From Bacteroidales bacterium (GTDB lineage Bacteria; Bacteroidota; Bacteroidia; Bacteroidales; WCHB1-69): a stretch of DNA of 64,000 bases. The translations under genes and the position numbers were made by a program. The stretch lies in NCBI GenBank assembly GCA_017525245.1, contig JAFXTE010000012.1:1-64000 (forward strand), in the 5' to 3' direction. Shown in pieces: positions 20,833 through 31,975 of this stretch. How positions within the stretch are numbered: position 1 is the first letter of the stretch; each line of letters starts with the position of its first letter. The notes beneath the pieces are model-generated. The model saw only the letters and a program-made list of their open reading frames with translations, was not told the DNA's origin and ran no database searches.

Positions 20833-21010
20833 GGTGTGTTTGTTTGCAGAATAACGTGTTTTTATTGTTCCGGTGCAATTTTTCGGAGCGGGAAATGTAT
20901 GGGAGGGGATAATTCGCCATGTGTGTTTCTCTTCGGGTGGTTAGTGAAAAATACAAAAATATGAGAAGGTGTAAGGGGATCCTCTGTAAAAACACAACTG
21001 TTCGTTTTTC

Positions 21011-21175
21011 AAAGACGTTTTCAAAGACGTTTTCAAAGACGTTTATAAAGACGTTTATAAAGACGTTTATAAAGACGTTTATAAAGACGTTTTCAAAGAC
21101 GTTTATAAAGACGTTTATAAAGACGTTTATAAAGACGTTTATAAAGACGTTTATAAAGACGTTTATAAAGACGTT
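21011..21175. repeat. 12-bp tandem repeat array (13 full units)
   Basis: Thirteen uninterrupted 12-bp units, AAAGACGTTTAT or AAAGACGTTTTC, plus a 9-bp partial unit. Ten units are of the first type. Units 1, 2 and 7 are of the second. The array starts 8 bp beyond the stop of the AlbA_2 gene in its reading direction. Twelve is a multiple of three, so frames stay open; on the plus strand one frame reads KTFI repeated. Confidence 0.95.
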
Positions 21176-21182
21176 ACCGGAT

Positions 21183-22679
21183 TTATTTGAGAATAATCCA
21201 AAAACCTTTACCTCTTCCTTTTCTATCTAAAAAGCCTTTCTGTTTCAGCAAGTCTGTACGATATTTCATCGCTCTTTCTCCAATTCCAAGCCTTTCCGAA
21301 AGTTGTGCCAACGTCTCTGTAGGATGTTCTTTAACAATAAGATAGGCTTTTTTCAGAGTGTCTTTTAAATCATTGTATTCTTCAATCAAACCGCCATTAA
21401 CTGTAATGGGCATTCCGACAAAATCTGGATGACATGGAATATCTATCAAAAAGAAAGATCTTTCATCATCTGTTTCTATAATTGCTCGTGGTGAACCATT
21501 TGCTTTAAGTGCAGCCTGGATTGTTGGAATACCTGTGGCATGTCCTTCCGTTAACCCCAGTTCTTTAAGAAAATCACCCAACCTACGATTCCTATACCTG
21601 CGCGAACGCAAAGCCCTTGCTTGCCGAATAGCATCAGCACTAATTGAACGGTCTGGCCCTGAATAACTTAATATAGTGATTTGGTTTGGTTCAATAGTTA
21701 TTTCCACGGGTTCATAAAGCTTATAGTCCCTATGATAAAGTGCATTTGTAACACTTTCTTCCAATGCAGCGTATGGATAATTGAAATACTTGATGGGTTC
21801 TTGCTTGTTGGACACTTTAATAATTCTCTCCTTTATGACATTTGTTTTCAAGTATTCTAAAGTGGTTCGAATGATATGAGGTACTGTGCCTTTTATTGTA
21901 GGTGCCTCTGTCATGTTATCCGGATTTTGCTCACGGCCTTCTGGAAAGATCACAATATCCACTTGACAATACGGAAAAAATTTATCGGGTGTTTCACAGA
22001 ACATCATAGCTGCGACATTTTTTATACATTGCCGTTCAGATGGACCTGTCAACAAATTCAGGTCTCTCATAAGTACCTCAATGGGCACACGACCTACGCT
22101 TTGTGACAGCCGACTACCAGTTGCCACCAAATAATCGCGCAACTGGACCAATGAAATGTCGTCATAACAGATGGAGGAGTTTCCTCTATCATCGAAAGGG
22201 ATTTTCGCAGAAATCTCTCTCAATTGATCTAGAGTTTCACCGACAGCCTCAATACTATTGGAACCATATCGTACATAGTATTTTGGTTTTTTATGTCTTG
22301 CCGTAATATCTTCGGGCACAGTATAAGGTCTCTCCATGCCACTTGGGACCCAAATTGCCAACAAATAATTGCCATCAACCTCTTCCACCGAGATGCGAGG
22401 TTGATAGTAAGGTTCTATTAAATGATTAAAACCAACCATTTGCTTTTGCATACTATCTAATTGTTCCATCGGAATTCCTTGAATGGGACGCTCTGCTACA
22501 CCATTCTTCTCCTTTACTCCGACAAGAATATATCCACCTCCCAGGTTATCTATATCGTTAGCAAAGGCACAAATGGAATGATAGATGCTAATTGGATTCC
22601 ATCCTGTCTTAAATTCTATTCTATTCGATTCAACTTTTCTTTTGTTCAGCAAGTCTTCAATGTTAATTGGTATTGCCAT
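21183..22679 (-). CDS. AlbA_2-domain ATP-binding protein with C-terminal winged helix
   Basis: A 498-residue protein of the family usually annotated as AlbA_2/Schlafen-like DNA-binding plus divergent HATPase (AAA_4). The AlbA_2 region is at about 16-135, with SNRIEFKTGW and GGGYILVGVKE. The HATPase-like region around 300-410 contains AALEESVTNALYHRDY and ILSYSGPDRSIS. The C-terminal ~60 residues form a winged helix (ETLAQLSERLGIGERAMKYR). Members are thought to be nucleic-acid-associated regulators, and relatives often occur near defence genes, but no activity is established here. The gene is AT-rich and divergent from the WYL regulator. A minus-strand TATTTTTG box lies near 22704-22711. Confidence 0.85.
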   Translation of the reverse strand: MAIPINIEDLLNKRKVESNRIEFKTGWNPISIYHSICAFANDIDNLGGGYILVGVKEKNGVAERPIQGIPMEQLDSMQKQMVGFNHLIEPYYQPRISVEEVDGNYLLAIWVPSGMERPYTVPEDITARHKKPKYYVRYGSNSIEAVGETLDQLREISAKIPFDDRGNSSICYDDISLVQLRDYLVATGSRLSQSVGRVPIEVLMRDLNLLTGPSERQCIKNVAAMMFCETPDKFFPYCQVDIVIFPEGREQNPDNMTEAPTIKGTVPHIIRTTLEYLKTNVIKERIIKVSNKQEPIKYFNYPYAALEESVTNALYHRDYKLYEPVEITIEPNQITILSYSGPDRSISADAIRQARALRSRRYRNRRLGDFLKELGLTEGHATGIPTIQAALKANGSPRAIIETDDERSFFLIDIPCHPDFVGMPITVNGGLIEEYNDLKDTLKKAYLIVKEHPTETLAQLSERLGIGERAMKYRTDLLKQKGFLDRKGRGKGFWIILK

Positions 22680-22888
22680 TGTTATTCCCTTTTTTCAATT
22701 CGCAAAAATACATAATTCAGCAATGCGAAAACATCGGTTGTTTATTCTTAGGGCAAACAAATATAGACACTGAAGCAGGCTGTAAAAGTAGCGAGTTAAT
22801 AGTGAACCGAATGGAATCAGAGTTAGTTACGTTATTTGATTTTTATACTTTCTTAATTTCCTTGCCTTTGAAGTATTCCGAAAAATGC

Positions 22889-22896
22889 TACTTTTG
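22889..22896 (+). promoter_or_regulatory. -7 box of the WYL regulator
   Basis: TACTTTTG, 30 bp before the ATG at 22927. The 247-bp divergent spacer also carries the opposing AlbA_2 promoter, so one regulator could control both directions. Confidence 0.6.
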
Positions 22897-22926
22897 CAAG
22901 CTTGTTTGCCATAAAAGTATCGTGTT

Positions 22927-23937
22927 ATGCCGAATTCCAAAAATGCAGATGTCCGCATCAAGGTCATTGACCGCTGTCTGAGTGACAAAAACCGCAAGTA
23001 TTCGATGGCGGAGATGATGGAATTATGCAATGAGGAGTTGGAACTACACGATTTCCCGCCCGTGTCGGCAATGAACACCATTCGCGGCGATATAGAACAG
23101 ATTCAACGGATATACGCCCCGAATGCGGATGTGGAAAGTTTCCGGGAGGGGCGGAACATCCGCTATCACTATGCCGATCCCGATTTCTCCATCTACAGGC
23201 CGCTGCTGAAGCCCGAGGAGACGGCACAGCTCATCCAGACACTCTGCTTGCTGAAACGGTTCAAGGGGATGCCGCAGTTCGACTGGATCAGCGAGATTTC
23301 CGACCGTTTGGGCGCTTCGTTGAAAATCGATGAGATTTCCACAGACGAGGTGGTCGGTTTTGACGAGAACATGGATTTGGAAGGGCTGGATCACTTCACG
23401 CCGCTGTTCAACGCCATCAGCGAAAAGCGGACGTTGTGCATCACCTACAAAAGTTTCAGGCAGGACAAGGAGGTGGAATACGTGGTCTATCCCTACTATC
23501 TGAAACAGTACAACAAGCGGTGGTTTCTGATTGCCAGGAATGTGGGTTATGAGACGTTGACCAACTACGCCCTCGACCGTATCCTGGGCATCAAAGAGAC
23601 GGATGAGCCGTTCCAACCCGCCGGCATCAACTTCGCCGACTATTTTGACGAGATGATCGGGGTGTCCAAAGATTCAAACGCGGAGCCCACGCTCGTCAAG
23701 CTGTGGGTCTCCCCGGTCTCGTGGCCGTACGTCCGCACCAAGCCGCTCCATGGCACGCAAAAGAAGGTCAGCGAGGATGACACCGGCGCCGTCATCACCA
23801 TCGAAGTGTATCTGAACTACGAGTTGGAGCAACTGATCCTGTCCTTTGGCGAAAACATGGAAGTGCTTGAACCGGAATGGTTTCGGGAGAAGATAAAGAT
23901 GAGGTTTGAGAAGGGATTGGAGAGGTACGGGGAATAG
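22927..23937 (+). CDS. WYL-domain transcriptional regulator
   Basis: A 336-residue protein with an N-terminal helical DNA-binding region (about 1-80: IKVIDRCLSDKNRKYSMAEMM), a central region, and a WYL domain around 150-225 (RTLCITYKSFRQDKEVEYVVYPYYLKQYNKRWFLIAR, split). A C-terminal WCX-like extension follows (LWVSPVSWPYVRTKPLH). WYL proteins sense ligands such as nucleic acids and frequently repress phage-defence operons (BrxR/CapW type). That role is inferred here from its position 71 bp upstream of the methylase-kinase gene. Unlike the next gene, its GC-rich codon use resembles the core genome. Confidence 0.88.
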   Translation: MPNSKNADVRIKVIDRCLSDKNRKYSMAEMMELCNEELELHDFPPVSAMNTIRGDIEQIQRIYAPNADVESFREGRNIRYHYADPDFSIYRPLLKPEETAQLIQTLCLLKRFKGMPQFDWISEISDRLGASLKIDEISTDEVVGFDENMDLEGLDHFTPLFNAISEKRTLCITYKSFRQDKEVEYVVYPYYLKQYNKRWFLIARNVGYETLTNYALDRILGIKETDEPFQPAGINFADYFDEMIGVSKDSNAEPTLVKLWVSPVSWPYVRTKPLHGTQKKVSEDDTGAVITIEVYLNYELEQLILSFGENMEVLEPEWFREKIKMRFEKGLERYGE

Positions 23938-24008
23938 GTTCAGTATGGGTGAACGTGAAAGTTGTTATTTTGCACCGTCAAATCGATGTTAAATTAATTT
24001 TTTGCGAT

Positions 24009-27000
24009 ATGGAAAATATTTCTTGGTCTGAAGAGCAGGTTTTAGCAGTTGTAAATGAGTTTAATGACAAGATGGAAGAACTTCGAAAACAAGCTCCGAA
24101 ATTCCAGCATATTGATTTTGTCAAGTTTGCTCTTATTTATCTGACACGCGAAGGCTTGACAACCGACTTGCTAATTGAAGATGTGAAAGATAAAAAAGTC
24201 GGAAGTGTTTTACAATACTTCAACGAGGTGATGGCTGATTCGAATTTCAAGCTCAAGCCTAACAATGAACAGATCACCTATACCCTTAAAGAAGCCATTC
24301 TTGAGATCTATAGCAATACGATTAAAGTCATTCCTTTTGAGGTTTTCATAGTGAATTATTTTGATTCTATCTTTATTCTTTTGGGTGATTTTTGGAATAA
24401 TCGAATCGAAGAATTTAATGTGATATCATCTTATAAGGCTTATGGTTTGAACGACAAATCGTTGTATATAAAAGGGTATTGTGCTTTTTCAGCTTTACTC
24501 ACAAAACTTGAAGATCCAAAATCCATTTGGGATAATAAGATTGCCATAGAATTTGACGATTTTGATGATTTATACATTTTTGATATAATATATGGAGCTC
24601 GCATTTCCACCATTCAGGACAAAATTGTTTTCATAAACCAGGCGCCTTTCGATGGAAATCAAAAAATTGACTTATACATAGACATGACTTTTGATTTCAA
24701 CAAAACTTCTTCTGTCCTTGAGCAACTTACACTAAAGGGGAAGGTCGTTGCAGGAGTAAATGAGCATGTTATCAAGGGAGAGAATCAAATCGTTCGTGAA
24801 CTGTTTGATGATAGACGAGTACAAACAGTACATACTAACGGGATAGATAATGGTTGGATAGAATTCGGAATTGAGAAATATAGTTTGTCACCATTCTTTT
24901 ATTCATCAGACCATGATCTGTATCGTGAAATAGAGACTGAAGAGATAATTCGTTATGGTTACTCATTAGATTATGAGAGATATGAAGTGTTCGAAAAAGT
25001 TGATGGGTTTATGACAACGATTGCTGATAATCTTCAAAATTTAGTTGAAGGTTATGAGGCAAGTACAGCATCTCTTTTCCTTATTCCTTATTTCAAAAAG
25101 CATTATAAAGGTGTGCTGTCAACTTTGATTGATGAATTTACTTACCCTGATTTCAAGACTTTAGAAGATAATTGCATAAAACGACATGAAGACGAGAAAG
25201 CACAGGTTATTCGTGCGTTTAATTTTTGTATCTCCCAAATAGGACGTGTCGATTATTATTCTGACGCTAAATATCAACATTTCCTTAATGCAATAAGGAT
25301 GATTGAAACCATTGATGACAATATCTTTCATAAGTATTATTCTGAAATAATTGAGAGAATCTGTGAAAGGGTAGTTCGATCTTCTTATACATCTCAATAT
25401 CAATTTATAGAATCTCAAATAGGAAATGCCGATGATTTACAGATTGTTGTTAGGAAAGACGATTATGCCGACATTATCTATCCAGGAGACAGTGGTATTG
25501 ATGAACTAACATCCTATGCAGGTTGGGGAAGTGTTATCACACCAAAAACATTGAAGGGAAAATCGGTTGAAATAGAAATGGCTTTTGACATTGATGCAGA
25601 GGAGTTTTACTATGACCCTGTGTGTTCTGCATCACAATATGTCATATTTAACGCAATGCGCGGTAAAAACAAGTCTCAATATGTTCGTGACATTGCGATT
25701 CCAATCTGTGATGTCGCCGATGTTGTCATTGATTTGCACAAAGACATCCGTCAATATGAAACGATTTCAAAATCGCATCTCAAGCATGGAGGACTATACG
25801 TGACTTTTGTCATGAAAAAAGATTTAGGATTATGCCAACCAGTCATCGAGAAACTCATCAAGGAAAATGTCTTAGATAAAGTCATCAGTCTCAACAATCG
25901 CTACTTGTTATTCATTAACCAAAGCAAACAGGATGACAAAGTAGTTTTGGCTAAGTTCAATCATGTTGATGAAGACCGGTGGCTGCAATCCTATCAAACT
26001 ATCATTGACGAATTGGCTTTAAATGCCGATTCCAAGCATGTTAGAATCTTGTCTTCGAAAGATTTTGCAGCAACTAATTATTCCATCTCGACAGATTCCT
26101 ATTTCACCGCCGTTGATTCTCATAGTATTGAAAGTGTTATTCATTCCCTGATCGCCCGTCACAATGTTGAGTATAATGCCATAGACATTTTGCTATACAT
26201 TCTGTCGAGAGTTGGTCATCTTCATAGATATGGTGTGGAATTTCCGTATTTTTCAAAAACCATAGAGAAGTTGGATGGGGTCTATGACAGTATGCTTGAT
26301 TATGAAGAACTTTTGATGGACAACTACACGGAATGTGTCAACACCGTGATTCAAATATATGGTACAGAGGTTTTTGCTCACGAACATTTCCAGCCCGGAA
26401 TCTCCAAATTGATGGTGGATGTCCTCTCGCCAGACAGTATCCACAATGTTTATAACCCGTTTGCAGGATTGGTAAGTTTTTGCTACTTGCTACCCAAGGC
26501 AGACTATTTTGGAAGTGAAATTGACGAGAATGTATTTACATTTGCAGCTTATCGATTGGAAGCCAATGGCCTATACGATCAAGCAATGTTCGAGTGTAGG
26601 GATTCTACAATTGATGATGCGGATGATGTCGCGCCCTTTGACACAATTCTCACTATTCTCCCATTCATGATTAAGAATGAGACCCGTTTGTATGATTATC
26701 TATTCGGGAAGTGCTTCTCTATGTTGGAGGAGAATGGTAAAATGATGGTGGCTCTCCCTTCCAAGTTCACTTTTGACAAATCACCCGCAATGACCGAACT
26801 TCGAAAAAAAATTGTGGAAAACAAGTGGGTGGAGAAAGTTATATGTTTGCCCAAAGGCGCATTCACAGGAACGAATGTCAACACCTGTTTGATTCAACTA
26901 TCAAAGCGAGCTAATCAGGAAATATTATTCTGTGATGCCACTCAAATGGTTGAATATGACAAAGGAAAAGGGACGATTCAGATGGAGGCAATTGTTTCTG

Positions 27001-28340
27001 CAATCAATCAGGAGGAGTCGTCTTGCTGCTTCAGAATTGCCAATTCGGCTGTCTTGGAAAATAATTATTCGCTTAACCTATTCGTCTATAAACCATTCCC
27101 GTCAGAAGAGGGCACAATTCAATGTCGGCTGAACAATTTCTTGACCGAGATTAAACGAACCCCGGCTCTTTCTTTGCCAGAAGGTTTGTTGTTCACTCAA
27201 GACATGCTTTCGTCGGATGTGGTGAATTATAGAAAAGGTTTAGATGATTTGAAAACAGGTGGTGTAAGTGAGTCCATGATGAAACTCCAAGGCGATGCGC
27301 TGATTGTCTCATCCGTTCAAAGCAATCTGAAACCCACGTACTTGGAAGTTGGAGAAGACACGTGTTATTACATGAATCGTGGTCTGTTGGCCTTTAAGGT
27401 GGATACCACAAAAGTGTTGCCTGGATATATTTGTCACGCATTAACACAGCCGGAAATATTGAAGCAAATCGACAATTATCGTATAGGAACGCTTGCAAAG
27501 ATTTCCTCAGACGACTTTCTAAACGTGCGGATTAACCTGCCAGATCTTTCTGCACAAAGAGCTATTGTTGATGATCTCACTCGTGAGCAATACACTAAGA
27601 AAAAGCAGGAATTAAACAAGATATATGGTGATGTTTATGCGGAAAAGGAAGAGGAATTCAAATCCTTGAAACATGCTATGGGAAAATCTGTTGCTGGAAT
27701 CACCGCTGCTGTAGATAATCTGTATAAGTATTTTGAAGGGAAGGGGCAGTTAGACACCATTGTTCATGAGCGCAGGTCATCCACACTGGGCGACAAACTT
27801 AATGTAATACAACAAAGTGTCCAGCATATTGCTGTACTTTTGAAACATGGAGCAGACTTTTTGGATGTATCCCAATACCCGATAGAATCGGTTTCCATCG
27901 ATGATCTTTGGCGGTGCATAACGTACGAAACAAACAGATTCTCTCTCAGCAAGTATAATGTGTTGGAAGATTCAATCAAACGTATGACTATCAGAATGAA
28001 TGTCGATTTATTCAAGATACTCGTGAATGATATACTGTCTAATGCGGAGAAACATGCTTTTGAAGACAACAATCCTATCAATACGGTTCGCGTAGAATAC
28101 GTTTGTGACAATTCTTGGTTCACACTGTTTGTCTCGAATAATGGTCGGCCTTTCCCGGATGATGTGGATGTGAAAAAATTCACGAAAAGATACTGGTCTG
28201 CTGGAAATCACCAAGGAAGTGGAATCGGCGGACACGATATTCTCAAGATAATGACCGCTTTTCAGGGAGAGTTTGAATTGTTGACGGATTACGAGGATTC
28301 CTATCCGACTTGCTATGTGTTAAGATTCCCTGTTGAGTAA
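24009..28340 (+). CDS. Methylase-like / specificity-like / histidine-kinase fusion protein
   Basis: A 1443-residue soluble protein with no signal peptide or membrane segment. Residues 1-~480 match no named domain. A type I methylase-like core starts at N816-PFAGLVSF (motif I region) and continues through D878-TILTILPF (motif IV region), MLEENGKMMVALPS and VICLPKGAFTGTNVNTCLIQLS. The catalytic NPPF is ILPF at 883-886, so methyl transfer is doubtful. Residues ~1050-1195 look like one specificity-subunit recognition unit (GDALIVSSVQ..., ending INLPDLSAQRAIVDDL). A helical segment carries SLKHAMGKS with H1222, like a HisKA phosphoacceptor. The HATPase has N-box LSNAEKHAF (N1345) and G2 GSGIGG (1403-1408). 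The ATG at 24009 avoids an upstream non-ATG extension. Strongly AT-rich. Predicted DNA-sensing kinase. Confidence 0.8.
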   Translation: MENISWSEEQVLAVVNEFNDKMEELRKQAPKFQHIDFVKFALIYLTREGLTTDLLIEDVKDKKVGSVLQYFNEVMADSNFKLKPNNEQITYTLKEAILEIYSNTIKVIPFEVFIVNYFDSIFILLGDFWNNRIEEFNVISSYKAYGLNDKSLYIKGYCAFSALLTKLEDPKSIWDNKIAIEFDDFDDLYIFDIIYGARISTIQDKIVFINQAPFDGNQKIDLYIDMTFDFNKTSSVLEQLTLKGKVVAGVNEHVIKGENQIVRELFDDRRVQTVHTNGIDNGWIEFGIEKYSLSPFFYSSDHDLYREIETEEIIRYGYSLDYERYEVFEKVDGFMTTIADNLQNLVEGYEASTASLFLIPYFKKHYKGVLSTLIDEFTYPDFKTLEDNCIKRHEDEKAQVIRAFNFCISQIGRVDYYSDAKYQHFLNAIRMIETIDDNIFHKYYSEIIERICERVVRSSYTSQYQFIESQIGNADDLQIVVRKDDYADIIYPGDSGIDELTSYAGWGSVITPKTLKGKSVEIEMAFDIDAEEFYYDPVCSASQYVIFNAMRGKNKSQYVRDIAIPICDVADVVIDLHKDIRQYETISKSHLKHGGLYVTFVMKKDLGLCQPVIEKLIKENVLDKVISLNNRYLLFINQSKQDDKVVLAKFNHVDEDRWLQSYQTIIDELALNADSKHVRILSSKDFAATNYSISTDSYFTAVDSHSIESVIHSLIARHNVEYNAIDILLYILSRVGHLHRYGVEFPYFSKTIEKLDGVYDSMLDYEELLMDNYTECVNTVIQIYGTEVFAHEHFQPGISKLMVDVLSPDSIHNVYNPFAGLVSFCYLLPKADYFGSEIDENVFTFAAYRLEANGLYDQAMFECRDSTIDDADDVAPFDTILTILPFMIKNETRLYDYLFGKCFSMLEENGKMMVALPSKFTFDKSPAMTELRKKIVENKWVEKVICLPKGAFTGTNVNTCLIQLSKRANQEILFCDATQMVEYDKGKGTIQMEAIVSAINQEESSCCFRIANSAVLENNYSLNLFVYKPFPSEEGTIQCRLNNFLTEIKRTPALSLPEGLLFTQDMLSSDVVNYRKGLDDLKTGGVSESMMKLQGDALIVSSVQSNLKPTYLEVGEDTCYYMNRGLLAFKVDTTKVLPGYICHALTQPEILKQIDNYRIGTLAKISSDDFLNVRINLPDLSAQRAIVDDLTREQYTKKKQELNKIYGDVYAEKEEEFKSLKHAMGKSVAGITAAVDNLYKYFEGKGQLDTIVHERRSSTLGDKLNVIQQSVQHIAVLLKHGADFLDVSQYPIESVSIDDLWRCITYETNRFSLSKYNVLEDSIKRMTIRMNVDLFKILVNDILSNAEKHAFEDNNPINTVRVEYVCDNSWFTLFVSNNGRPFPDDVDVKKFTKRYWSAGNHQGSGIGGHDILKIMTAFQGEFELLTDYEDSYPTCYVLRFPVE

Positions 28341-28392
28341 GTGGTCGTTTTATAGCTAAATCAATTTGATAGTATCATAAAACCAATAAATT

Positions 28393-29559
28393 ATGGCATA
28401 TAAAGTTTTGTGGGTTGATGACGAGTTTGATACCGATGCGTTACAAGAAGTAGCTGATTCCGCTGCAAACCGAGGAATCAATATGGATACGGCGTGCAAG
28501 TCTGCAGAAGAGGCTTTGGCACATTTGCAACATGCTAAAGATTTTGATGCAATCATTTTGGATGCCCGCTTTTTAACGTCAACAAGCGACACTCTTGACA
28601 GTAAAGGCGGAGTGAAAGGCTTAGGTAGAGTTATAAAACGTATTCGACAGTTGAAGGATGCGGGAGACTATATCCCGACATTCATCTTTTCTGGTCAGCC
28701 CGACACTTTCAAGAGCGAATGGTTTGCGGAAACATACGAAGAGTATGAGGTTTTCCAAAAGGGGTTGGACAACATGAGGTTGTTTGATGCGATTATTCGC
28801 GCTGTGAACGAAAGAGAGGTAAGCCAAGTGAAGCTGAAATATGCTCCACTGTTTGACATTGGTGTGCCGAAATATCTGTTTGATTCTTCAGATATTGCCG
28901 ATCGTCTGTTGAATTATGCTATACAAGTCGAGCATAACGATACGAAGAAAACGGATTATTTGAATGATATGCGTAAACTGATAGAAGAACTTTTTGAAAA
29001 GTGTGAACAAGTCGGTTTGCTTCGTTCAGGAATCAACTCACTGAATGAAAAGAGTAAGTTTTTGTGTGACAACAATATGCAGAAGTTCATTCCTCCGTAT
29101 GTTCAAGAGTCTATTCGACATATTCTCCGTTGCACCCAAGAAGGTTCTCATCATGGGTCTGCAGATGCCGATATGCGAAACGGTATCGCACCGTTTTTGT
29201 TCAGATCTCTGTTTTTCTCCCTTGCCACAGTGTTGGTTTGGTGGAAACAATTTGTTGACAGTAATTGCGATAAAGATGCATTAAAACAATTTGTGGAATC
29301 TATCCAAGTAGAGTCAGATCAGGCAAAAAAAGAAAAGAAGCCTGAAGAATCAGAGCGAGATGCCACAACGCCTCTTCCATACACATATATCGTAGAAAAG
29401 GATAGTGACGGATTTTATCATTGTGGCCCTTATTTGATGTCATCAAAGCACGGACAAGCAATAGAAGGGAGAATGGTGACAGTTCTCGATGAGGATGCCA
29501 ATACGAAAAAAAAGATTGATGTGTACCCGAGATTTGCGAAGAGAGTTAAGGAGGTTTGA
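28393..29559 (+). CDS. Receiver-domain protein with helical R-x6-H C-terminal domain
   Basis: A 388-residue partner of the upstream kinase fusion, 52 bp downstream on the same strand. Residues 1-~125 are a complete response-regulator receiver: acidic pair D9-D10 in LWVDDE, phosphoacceptor D57 in AIILDARF, the switch serine in TFIFSGQ, and the lysine in VFQKGLD. The rest is helical and is not a recognised DNA-binding output domain. It contains R246-CTQEGS-H253-H254 followed by a hydrophobic helix (PFLFRSLFFSLATVLVWW), an arrangement reminiscent of HEPN RNases (R-x4-6-H), which is inference. Residues ~310-325 are a lysine/glutamate linker. A beta-rich tail (YTYIVEKDSDGFYHCGPYL) ends the protein. 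Confidence 0.8.
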   Translation: MAYKVLWVDDEFDTDALQEVADSAANRGINMDTACKSAEEALAHLQHAKDFDAIILDARFLTSTSDTLDSKGGVKGLGRVIKRIRQLKDAGDYIPTFIFSGQPDTFKSEWFAETYEEYEVFQKGLDNMRLFDAIIRAVNEREVSQVKLKYAPLFDIGVPKYLFDSSDIADRLLNYAIQVEHNDTKKTDYLNDMRKLIEELFEKCEQVGLLRSGINSLNEKSKFLCDNNMQKFIPPYVQESIRHILRCTQEGSHHGSADADMRNGIAPFLFRSLFFSLATVLVWWKQFVDSNCDKDALKQFVESIQVESDQAKKEKKPEESERDATTPLPYTYIVEKDSDGFYHCGPYLMSSKHGQAIEGRMVTVLDEDANTKKKIDVYPRFAKRVKEV

Positions 29560-29602
29560 AAGTGATAGAGAATAGGTTCACTATCCCTGAACCTACCCGT
29601 TG

Positions 29603-29610
29603 TATTTTTG
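29603..29610 (+). promoter_or_regulatory. -7 box before the small membrane peptide and rmuC
   Basis: TATTTTTG, 43 bp upstream of the small ORF at 29654. Confidence 0.55.
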
Positions 29611-29653
29611 CCGCCGGAAATCAACGTTATTATTCATCAAAATTTTTGGAGTT

Positions 29654-29755
29654 ATGATTATTTACATTCTCATTGGTTGTTTCGGCTGGCTTCTGGAAGC
29701 CGTAGGTGGCGCTTTAATTGGCAAGAATCCCGGAGACATGTTCGGCAAAAAGTAG
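29654..29755 (+). CDS. Putative 33-residue membrane peptide
   Basis: The ORF begins MIIYILIGCFGWLLEAVGG and ends MFGKK, with one hydrophobic helix, glycines and a basic tail. It has a promoter-like box upstream and precedes rmuC by 57 bp. I do not recognise it. The GxxLxG-rich helix resembles small phage- or toxin-type or glycine-zipper peptides, but this is weak. It may be a real short gene or merely the open leader of rmuC. Confidence 0.4.
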   Translation: MIIYILIGCFGWLLEAVGGALIGKNPGDMFGKK

Positions 29756-29812
29756 TTCAAATCTTCTTAATTGCAGGTCAACATTCATCAATTATTCATC
29801 AAATATCTCGCT

Positions 29813-31596
29813 ATGAACACTTTCATATACATCATTTTAGCATTGGTGGCAGTTTGCACCATCTGCACAGTCATCGTTATGGTCAAAGTCTTTTCCAGAC
29901 AAGAAACCACCTCGGATGTCTCTTCGAAAGACTTCGACCGCTTGGAAGGGAAAATCTCGGAAGAGAACAGGAGTGCCCGGCAGGAACTGTCGGACAACAT
30001 CGATAAAATCCGAAAAGAGCTGTCGGAGAACGTCGGACACATGCGGACGGAAACGGTGGACAACATGGGAAAGATGCGGGAGGAACTCTCTGGCAACGTG
30101 GGGAAGATGCGCGAAGAGATTTCGGGCACGGTGAACAAATTACGCTCTGAATTCACTGAAAATGTCAGTCAGTTGAGGAAAGAATCGTCGGAAACGTCCA
30201 AAAACCAGCGAGAAGAGACAAAGAAAGCCTTTACGGACTTTCAGACCGCATTTGGTGACAATGTCGCAAAACTCAATTCTTTCCAAAAAGAAGGCTTCGA
30301 TGACATGGGGAAGCGCAACAAGGAGTTTGTGGGCACCATGGAGTCCAAACTTGAAAACTTGAAGGATACCACCAACACGACGCTGACAAAATCGTTCGAG
30401 CAATTCTTCAAAACATTCGATGCCAACACTGACAAATCGGTTGAGGCGCAGAATGCCGGTTTTGAGAAGATGGAGAAACGTCAGTCGGACTTGATTAAGA
30501 CTACGGAAACCAAACTTGATGCGCTGCGTTCCATCGTCGAGGAAAAGCTGACCACGATGTCCGAGAAGTTCCAGGAAGGGTTCGAGAAGAACACCGAAAA
30601 GATGGTGGAAGCTCAGAAGGAGCGGTTTGCCGAAATGGACAAGCGGCAGTCGGACCTGATCCAAACGACAGAGAAACGGTTGGATGAGATGCGGGCAACG
30701 GTGGATGAGAAGCTGCAGAAGACCCTGAACGACCGTCTCGGGCAGTCTTTCAAGCTGGTCAGCGAGCAACTCGAAAGCGTCCAAAAAGGGTTGGGCGAGA
30801 TGAAGAACCTCGCTTCCGATGTCGGAGGTTTGAAGAACGCGTTAACCAATGTCAAAGTGCGTGGCAATTTCGGGGAGCTGCAACTCAAGGCGTTGTTGGA
30901 GCAGATGCTGTCTCCTGAGCAATACGATGAGAATGTGGCCACCGTGCCCGGCAGCTCGGAACGCGTGGAGTTCGCCATCAAGTTGCCCGGTAAGGATGAT
31001 CCCCACCGGTGTATCTGCCTGTCGATTCCAAGTTCCCCAAGGATGTCTATGACCAGTATGTCGATGCCATAGACACGGGGGACGCCGCGACGATCAAATC
31101 GAAATCCAGCCAGTTTGAGAACACAATATTGGCCATGGCGAAGGACATCAGCACCAAGTACTTATCCGTCCCCGACACGACCAATTTCGCCATCATGTTT
31201 GTGCCCGTTGAGAACATCTACGCCGAGGTCATCCGCCGTTCGAAACTTACGCAGGAACTGAGGGACAAATGGAACGTGCTCGTCACAGGACCGACCACCT
31301 TGGGTGCCTTGCTCAGCAGTCTGCAGATGGGCTTCCGCACATTGGCCATCGAGAAACGTAGCAACGATGTCTGGACCACCTTGGGCGCGGTCAAGACGGA
31401 GTTTTCCAAATTCGGCGACCTCCTTGAGAAGGCCAAGAAGAACATCGACTCCGCTTCCGCGACCATCGAGCAGCTTCAGGGCACCCGCACCAAAGCCATC
31501 AAACGGAAACTGCGGGAGGTCGAGGTCCTGCCGACGGACCAGGCCGCCTCGTTGCTGCCGGATATGGGCGAGGAAGGTGTTTGGGATGAAGAATGA
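29813..31596 (+). pseudogene. rmuC: RmuC-family protein, split by a frameshift
   Basis: RmuC limits DNA inversion and rearrangement at short repeats and has a membrane anchor, a long coiled coil and a nuclease-like core. Here the first frame (from the ATG at 29813) has a membrane segment (residues ~3-25), ~300 residues of coiled coil, and the core start GNFGELQLKALLEQML, VEFAIKLPGKDD. It then runs out of frame at 31072. The core resumes one frame over with VYLPVDSKFPKDVYDQYVDA through GALLSSLQMGFRTLAIEK to 31596. Adding one C to the CCCC run at 31001-31004 restores a continuous reading (DDPPPVYLPVD). Either a real 1-nt deletion or an assembly error. Confidence 0.88.
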
Positions 31597-31975
31597 TGGT
31601 TTTTCCCCTATGCCTGGGCAGCTAATGGTTCCCCGTGCCACCTTCGAGACCACGGATGACCGTTTGACGTTCCTTATAAACATCCCTGTCCATCCCGGCT
31701 GTGATAACAAGCTGCTTCAATTAGATGCCCAAGGACAGGTTTCTGTCCCAGAGGGTGTACAGAAAAGTACACAGAAAGGTACACAGAAAAGTACACAGAA
31801 AATCCTTGAGCTTATCGCTGAAAACCCTAAAGTGACAACCCAAGAGATGGCAGATTCGCTTGGAATTATACGGCGAGCCGTTGCCAAGCATATAAAGAAA
31901 TTGCAGGAGCAAGGCGTCATCCGCCGGGTCGGACCGGACAAAGGCGGCCATTGGGAAGTCATAGAGAGACCATGA
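31586..31975 (+). pseudogene. 3' remnant of a second AlbA_2-type ATP-binding protein gene
   Basis: A ~130-codon open stretch whose product contains PRATFETTDDRLTFLINIPVHPGC (split), matching SPRAIIETDDERSFFLIDIPCHP in the intact protein at 21183. A QKSTQKGTQKSTQK repeat and a winged helix (VTTQEMADSLGIIRRAVAKHIK) follow. The AlbA_2 and HATPase parts are absent, and the piece overlaps the end of rmuC by 11 bp. It is a truncated fragment left by deletion or recombination. The 12-bp repeats (GTACACAGAAAA-type, about 31757-31803) encode the QKST units. Confidence 0.8.

Follow-up and report, generated by a model that had tools for sequence, protein, structure and literature searches.

A conserved, probably mobile two-component cassette of Bacteroidota whose sensor kinase carries a putative dead type I methylase as its input

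The DNA analyzed here is a 64,000-nucleotide stretch (the window) of contig JAFXTE010000012.1 (C98) in the Bacteroidales assembly GCA_017525245.1. At positions 22927–29559, open reading frame (ORF) calls placed three head-to-tail genes on the + strand, encoding a WYL regulator, a fusion of a methylase-like core, a recognition half-domain and a histidine kinase, and a receiver protein. The WYL and fusion genes were separated by 71 base pairs (bp) and the fusion and receiver genes by 52 bp, and the order, coordinates and gaps were the same as those given in an earlier reading of the window made from the letters alone (the original prediction). The cassette is real and conserved and is probably mobile, and its sequence points to a link with defense and to a dead-methylase input. 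We lean towards regarding it as a mobile, defense-associated two-component system of Bacteroidota, in which a dead type I methylase and an HsdS-type half-domain would serve as the input of the sensor kinase. Gene order, linkage, the degenerate methylase, the intact kinase and receiver motifs, the defense neighborhoods and a block of difference from the relative L003 are all supported by the sequences. The parts of the cassette are as follows (aa, amino acids).

22927–23937, + strand: WYL/WCX regulator gene (protein P0001), 336 aa (Pfam WYL, 9.4e-16; WCX, 4.6e-12)
24009–28340, + strand: gene for the fusion of putative pseudo-methylase, recognition half-domain and histidine kinase, P0002 (Pfam, PADLOC and family alignments)
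26454–27089, + strand: putative pseudo-methylase core (N6_Mtase match at 26697–27089; motif comparison with 12 HsdM proteins)
27366–27617, + strand: putative HsdS-type recognition half-domain, residues 1120–1203 (Methylase_S, 0.0066; PADLOC Specificity_I, 3.7e-7)
27672–27674, + strand: codon of H1222, the phospho-acceptor candidate, in the helix between the recognition and HATPase domains
28011–28334, + strand: HATPase domain, residues 1335–1442, with an N box (N1345, H1349), an NNGxP G1 box and a GxG G2 box (HATPase_c, 5.4e-5)
28393–29559, + strand: receiver protein P0003, 388 aa (family profile matching receiver structures; D57 and K123 in 28 of 28)
28393–28812, + strand: receiver domain, D57 codon at 28561–28563 (profile and alignments)
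28813–29253, + strand: helical output domain with R194 and H253 (alignment of 28 receiver proteins)

The fusion protein is 1443 aa long when read from its ATG; an alternative GTG at 23949 would give 1463 aa. Homologs were collected using the fusion protein, the receiver protein and profiles built from their relatives. This gave a set of 28 loci (individually L003, L012 and so on) including the window, of which 26 are in Bacteroidota genomes, one is on a Myroides odoratimimus plasmid (L012; three records among 72,556 plasmid records, counted once) and one is on an unannotated fecal phage scaffold (L013; one of 50,697 phage records). A 770-aa ORF with no kinase found beside it (L020, genome G065; E value, 3e-5) was dropped before the count. 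Outside Bacteroidota, the search covered the plasmid and phage collections and one scan of genome contigs for close relatives; scans of viral contigs confirmed no relatives. Matches that extend from the methylase into the kinase were found in at least 9 of 395 Bacteroidota genomes, the window's own included, and full-length matches to the receiver protein in at least 12. In a thirteenth genome (G679), the match covered the receiver domain only, and the neighboring gene encoded a kinase of the same family (L099). The helical output domain was present in at least 13 of 393 Bacteroidales genomes. All of these genome counts are lower bounds, as few candidates were scored per genome, and the family is common enough among Bacteroidota genomes to be tested experimentally.

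Unlinked homologs had been named beforehand as the finding that would speak against the original prediction. In 27 of the 28 loci, the kinase gene directly preceded the receiver gene in the same orientation, a count in which the gene labels rest on profiles from the same loci and the relatives had been sought with the pair's own proteins. N6_Mtase or HATPase_c was confirmed singly with Pfam in the window and in 10 relatives, and HsdM was confirmed in L003. The recurring kinase–receiver order is more than chance. Support was thereby given to the originally described picture of linked kinase and receiver proteins of cytosolic type, with an input resembling a restriction enzyme.

The kinase part had been predicted from a helix containing H1222 and a full HATPase domain, and both were borne out by the family alignment. 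The HATPase_c match in the window (residues 1335–1442; 24.0 bits) fell just below the cut-off of 26.4 bits, and N1345, H1349, N1377, G1379, G1405 and G1407 were invariant in all 27 kinases. Position 1222 was His in 26 of the 27, and the gapped sequence, L015, has an in-register His in a MAFFT alignment. The protein therefore has the conserved His in a helix and the N and G boxes that define a two-component kinase. P0003 alone gave no Pfam match; a profile of 18 receiver relatives matched solved receiver domains (best, 7e-5; PorX, 9.3e-4). D57 and K123 were found in 28 of 28 receiver proteins and D10 in 27, which gives the phospho-acceptor Asp, acidic pair and Lys of a two-component receiver. 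H1222, N1345 and D57 all stand at the residues originally predicted, and the receiver is intact as claimed. Judged by their motifs, both kinase and receiver look active.

The input half of the fusion had been described as a type I methylase-like core. The likeness stood: Pfam N6_Mtase matched residues 901–1027 above its cut-off (3e-12), and PADLOC agreed, with values of 6.1e-13 for its methylase model and 3.7e-7 for its specificity model (Specificity_I). The description had to be corrected, however, because the core is degenerate. In the window, motif I reads NPFAGLV (26454–26474) and motif IV reads ILPF in place of NPPF (26655–26666). Motif IV in the form [NDS]PP[YFW] was kept in one of 20 aligned members, L056, which is without motif I, while NPPF or NPPY was kept in all 12 HsdM controls, comprising 11 from the same loci and the window genome's own HsdM; L018 and L096 were left out of the 20, and L117–L121, found later, are not among them. 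By the criterion of an intact motif IV, the fusion is not a modification enzyme of type I restriction-modification (R-M). The same comparison decided against a fusion that still methylates DNA under the control of its kinase domain. N6_Mtase matches above the cut-off, up to 3.7e-40 in L016, the partly kept motif I of many members and partial forms of motif IV (NPPL in L012 and L053; xPPF in L003, L013, L016 and L051) would suit such an enzyme, but the near-complete loss of the full motif makes it highly improbable, and it was rejected on motif IV. The degenerate methylase core is probably catalytically dead, whereas the kinase stayed intact. Because motif IV is lost in the fusions while nearby HsdM proteins keep it, the core is probably a reader of DNA, not a writer.

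The recognition half-domain follows the core. In the window its Methylase_S match (17.1 bits) is below the cut-off of 22, and Methylase_S was above the cut-off in five of 10 singly scanned relatives (L016, L018, L057, L097 and L098). Other input domains were present in some members: L016 and L017 carry HARE-HTH at the N-terminus, the same domain was just below the cut-off in L097, and L018 had a sub-threshold HNH match (0.0081). On Lactococcus plasmids (records H25–H29), proteins annotated as “N-6 DNA methylase” resemble the L099 fusion, with matches that cover its methylase and run on into its recognition part, and in three of these records a second methylase gene adjoins; these proteins are perhaps kinase-free relatives.

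Several observations weigh against a defense-associated kinase fed by a DNA reader. The other five singly scanned relatives (L015, L017, L058, L096 and L099) gave no Methylase_S match at an E value of 0.1, and L018 and L096 were without a methylase match, so that a DNA reader is not proven across the family. In cross-scoring, the recognition domain best matched the HsdS of its own locus in only one of 10 cases, and the pseudo-methylase its own HsdM in only one of 11, which gives no support to the idea that the kinase protein reads the same site as the adjoining HsdS. Nor was a hypervariable recognition domain seen, its median identity being 0.22 versus 0.21 for the kinase. Since its own HsdS and HsdM are rarely closest and the recognition domain varies no more than the kinase does, nothing links the fusion to the specificity of the neighboring R-M genes. 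The G1 box has Asn at the position where a canonical histidine kinase has Asp. In L122, the receiver protein stands without a kinase, and the next upstream gene is MutS. Finally, the window cassette has no directly adjoining R-M genes.

Elsewhere, the original placement in a defense context was borne out in part, as a WYL gene mostly stands beside the pair and defense genes are often near. In 17 of 28 loci, the WYL gene stands immediately next to the kinase gene; in L016, one gene lies between them. The gene following the receiver gene is HsdM in nine loci, and HsdM is next but one in L003 (10 of 28 in total, counted without a random-locus control). The pair also adjoins HsdR (L054), divergent HsdM/HsdS (L097), McrBC (L099), the Shedu gene SduA (L117), N6_N4 methylase genes (L120 and L121) and a set of AAA_15, PLD-like and UvrD genes (L058), and GmrSD genes follow the R-M genes in L053 and L055. 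In L096 (605–12188), it lies within a type III CRISPR row containing Cas10, a Csx1-type CARF match just below the cut-off and Cas6; there the kinase protein consists of the kinase part only, the methylase and recognition domains being gone, and the locus is possibly a CRISPR-linked phosphorelay. At the other loci, where part of the neighbors was scanned and several contigs end close by, no defense gene was recognized beyond WYL and Schlafen-like genes. Loci L051 (13484–17745) and L055 (4800–7830), from the same genus, share four flanking genes and carry different kinase–receiver and R-M genes, a pattern suggestive of insertion at a shared site. Elsewhere in the window genome there is a type I R-M locus, apparently complete (G000:C41; L100, 6384–20000), with an HsdM containing NPPF and HsdS- and HsdR-like genes; no kinase–receiver pair was present in the stretch seen.

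These neighborhoods, with HsdM following in 10 loci, raise the question of whether the pair is a control module of R-M, which senses unmethylated host sites and tunes the neighboring R-M genes (restriction alleviation) without an immune effector of its own. The WYL gene with its candidate operators (below) and the type I methylase-like input would fit such a role. We consider it rather unlikely, because R-M genes are absent from the stretch seen around the window pair and several others, the output domain of L099 is of the Schlafen AlbA_2 type, and the sequence of the input does not correspond to the neighboring specificity.

The C-terminal part of the receiver protein, helical as judged by eye, contains R194 in 28 of 28 proteins and H253 in 27 of 28 (the L121 ORF is cut short); L099, whose output domain is a different one, was aligned by force for these two counts. 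No Pfam family or PDB sequence match identified this domain. The original prediction called it HEPN-like, a label that found no support: the receiver proteins had no sequence match to a HEPN family or solved HEPN structure, and the RX4-6H motif (Arg 5–7 residues before the conserved His) was found in only three of the 27 sequences having that His. That the output is nevertheless a HEPN ribonuclease is unlikely, since 59 residues separate the conserved Arg from the conserved His, although the helical character and the conservation of both residues are in keeping with it, as is the replacement of this domain in L099 by SLFN_AlbA_2 (6.4e-15), another domain of an RNase-type superfamily. In L099 (2438–3382), the receiver domain is fused to Schlafen AlbA_2, and McrBC-type genes come directly after. 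A profile of six output tails, the window not included, weakly resembled cold-shock proteins (best E value, 0.028). From the one swap and this weak match, we suggest that the receiver C-terminus is a replaceable output that plausibly acts on RNA. A tighter co-divergence of the kinase with the receiver domain than with the output domain was seen weakly (r of 0.71 versus 0.62 for 23 loci, the window/L003 pair excluded, without a significance test), and was set aside.

At the DNA level the cassette was compared with that of L003, on a contig of RUG083, from which the window differs in one block.

25973–28909, + strand: block differing from L003 (60.7% DNA identity, between blocks of 98.1% and 94.7%)

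Identity was 98.1% at 22873–25972, 94.7% at 28910–29250, 78.0% at 29251–29559 and 94.3% at 29560–29700. The 2.9-kilobase differing block takes in the methylase core, the recognition domain and the kinase, runs over the gene boundary to include the receiver domain, and contains hardly any of the output domain. Three long matches placed the upstream flank of L003 on other contigs of the window genome, at 84–93% identity, and a single 245-bp match (65%) was found for its downstream R-M region. These flank identities indicate that the outer cassette is at least as similar as the flanking DNA, that the cassette sits elsewhere, and that its center is far less similar. No second copy of the block was found in the window's genome. 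The difference is an apparent allele exchange, a reading that rests on one pair of assemblies. Both assemblies are from uncultured bacteria and the window genome has an estimated contamination of 6.46%, which could point to an assembly chimera of two strains with no exchange in a cell. We regard this as quite improbable, because in both versions the reading frames stay open through the two genes and the domains come in the same order, each switch falls within a gene and causes no frameshift, and a chimera would still need two diverged real alleles. Taken as an exchange, the block pattern is what the re-targeting of a sensor would look like while kinase and receiver stay matched.

The remaining features of the cassette and its surroundings are the following.

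21183–22679, − strand: Schlafen AlbA_2/HATPase_c_4/winged-helix protein P0004, divergent, upstream (Pfam SLFN_AlbA_2, 7.1e-17; HATPase_c_4, 8.9e-7)
23938–23954, + strand: inverted repeat GTTCAGTATGGGTGAAC, candidate WYL operator (promoter-like stretch at 23961–23973, 6 nucleotides later)
24009–25973, + strand: N-terminal module of the fusion, residues 1–655 (relative only in L003)
29576–29592, + strand: second inverted repeat GTTCACTATCCCTGAAC, candidate WYL operator (promoter-like stretch at 29599–29611, 6 nucleotides later)
29654–29755, + strand: 33-aa hydrophobic small ORF behind the second repeat (codon comparison with L003)

The identity of the WYL regulator was secured by its Pfam WYL and WCX matches, and the two inverted repeats flank the kinase–receiver pair. 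Perfect matches to the pattern GTTCANTATNNNTGAAC occurred only twice in the 3.68-Mb (megabase) genome, the site at 23938 being one, and GTTCAnTATnnnTGAAC was found without mismatch at two places in the 3.68 Mb, one directly after the WYL gene and the other directly after the receiver gene. With one mismatch allowed, there were two further places in the genome, and a backward control pattern gave one. The pattern was read off the sites themselves, and two window matches at two or fewer mismatches are within chance. Each perfect repeat is followed after 6 nucleotides by GTTGTwwTTTTGC, which we take to resemble the −7 element of Bacteroidota. L003 has both sites, with one mismatch in the second; a crude scan of shared 8- and 9-mers in 11 other loci revealed no shared WYL operator. 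The WYL protein probably represses the kinase–receiver pair via the flanking candidate operators. The 33-aa ORF behind the second repeat differs from L003 by five synonymous and no nonsynonymous changes in codons 1–28; among 295 Bacteroidales genomes, it was matched only in the window's own and in none of the 294 others. It may encode a small membrane protein belonging to the cassette.

The N-terminal module of the fusion had its sole relative in L003 among 421 neighbor ORFs. A second degenerate methylase at residues 505–631 is very tentatively suggested by two weak, collinear matches to HsdM in hhalign (E values, 0.069 and 0.14; probability below 1%). P0004 is possibly a separate defense gene beside the cassette; a gene of this type does not adjoin the cassette in L003. 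KTF-type repeats were read on the + strand at 20919–21230. Behind the cassette, an RmuC-like gene (by eye) is split into overlapping frames at 29771–31072 and 31009–31596 and may be frameshifted or mis-assembled. The ORF behind it, at 31304–31975, matches P0004 (2e-8), has TQK repeats, and is possibly a remnant of a second P0004 copy.

Returning to the two-component system with a dead-methylase input, we infer DNA binding, the direction of the signal, phosphotransfer, output and phage defense in the following manner. A dimer of the fusion would grip DNA, or a complex of R-M proteins and DNA, via the pseudo-methylase and recognition domain. The helix behind an HsdS recognition domain joins subunits, and the bound or methylation state could be passed along the corresponding helix of the fusion into that of H1222. 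The HATPase domain would then phosphorylate H1222, the phosphate would pass from H1222 to D57 of the receiver partner, and phosphorylated D57 would free or assemble the output domain, which might act as a back-up effector or control neighboring defense genes. Repression of the pair by the WYL protein would be exerted through the flanking inverted repeats. More tentatively, although we hold it to be possible, the cassette could represent a new class of immune sensor, in which a histidine kinase made from a dead modification enzyme reads DNA methylation and backs up restriction by phosphotransfer to exchangeable effectors. Such a sensor would be re-targeted by exchange of the whole sensor–kinase–receiver block, the cognate receiver domain being carried along so that signaling specificity is kept. 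Restriction enzymes act directly on DNA; a restriction-derived reader feeding a phosphorelay would, if true, couple the modification state of DNA to a response of the whole cell, could account for how a cell notices that restriction was bypassed, and would constitute a natural DNA-input histidine kinase.

The original prediction put the system forward as a candidate for an undescribed one. In open papers (as distinct from subscription papers, preprints and supplements), no description was found of a methylase/recognition/kinase fusion with a receiver partner, and to that extent the claim stood; R-M-linked two-component systems of another family are already in print (PMC8011034). No such system appeared in the consulted passages of PMC7641849 and PMC12255303. 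A figure legend in PMC13092281 lists HATPase and REC among the domains of predicted systems, too briefly for comparison, and an overlap with these is possible. The divergent neighbor P0004 has the same domain order as Schlafen/minimal histidine-kinase-type ATPase/wHTH proteins reported beside BREX loci (PMC12839542); it is a separate gene that is not found next to the cassette in L003. BrxR is a WYL repressor that uses two inverted-repeat boxes (PMC9122601), and here too a WYL regulator heads a defense-associated cassette with two such boxes, which are candidate operators; the repeat sequence and spacing differ. Detocs is a defensive two-component system of three genes whose best-described effector is an ATP-cleaving PNP domain (PMC11249213, PMC10952713). 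Two-component logic in a defense locus and an exchangeable effector are common to both systems, but the parts differ from those of the three-gene system with its PNP effector. Scans with PADLOC 2023 and NCBIfam, libraries in which the presence of Detocs models is unverified, gave no Detocs-named match, and the window proteins had no match to the PNP Pfam domain.

The methylase core and putative recognition half-domain of the fusion stand in the same order as in HsdM and HsdS of type I R-M. Unlike those subunits, both are fused with a kinase, motif IV is lost, and there is no HsdR partner of their own in the window. The closest published kind is the R-M-linked HEF_HK/Response_reg_2 pair (PF19191/PF19192), a predicted soluble two-component system beside R-M genes described by Bellieny-Rabelo et al. 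in 2021 (PMC8011034), with 91.6% linkage, an input that is mostly HATPase_c_3 (paraMORC-like) and type II C5 methylases nearby. The available portion of the paraMORC paper itself (PMC2292703) does not mention receivers. PF19191 and PF19192 had no match at an E value of 1 or below in P0001–P0004 or in 18 receiver proteins, none at 2 or below in nine, and none in 10 kinases scanned to 0.1. As in HEF_HK/Response_reg_2, soluble kinase-like and receiver-like proteins are encoded side by side in R-M neighborhoods; what sets the present cassette apart is that a degenerate type I methylase and a recognition domain lie within the kinase protein itself, and that the R-M genes nearby are of type I.

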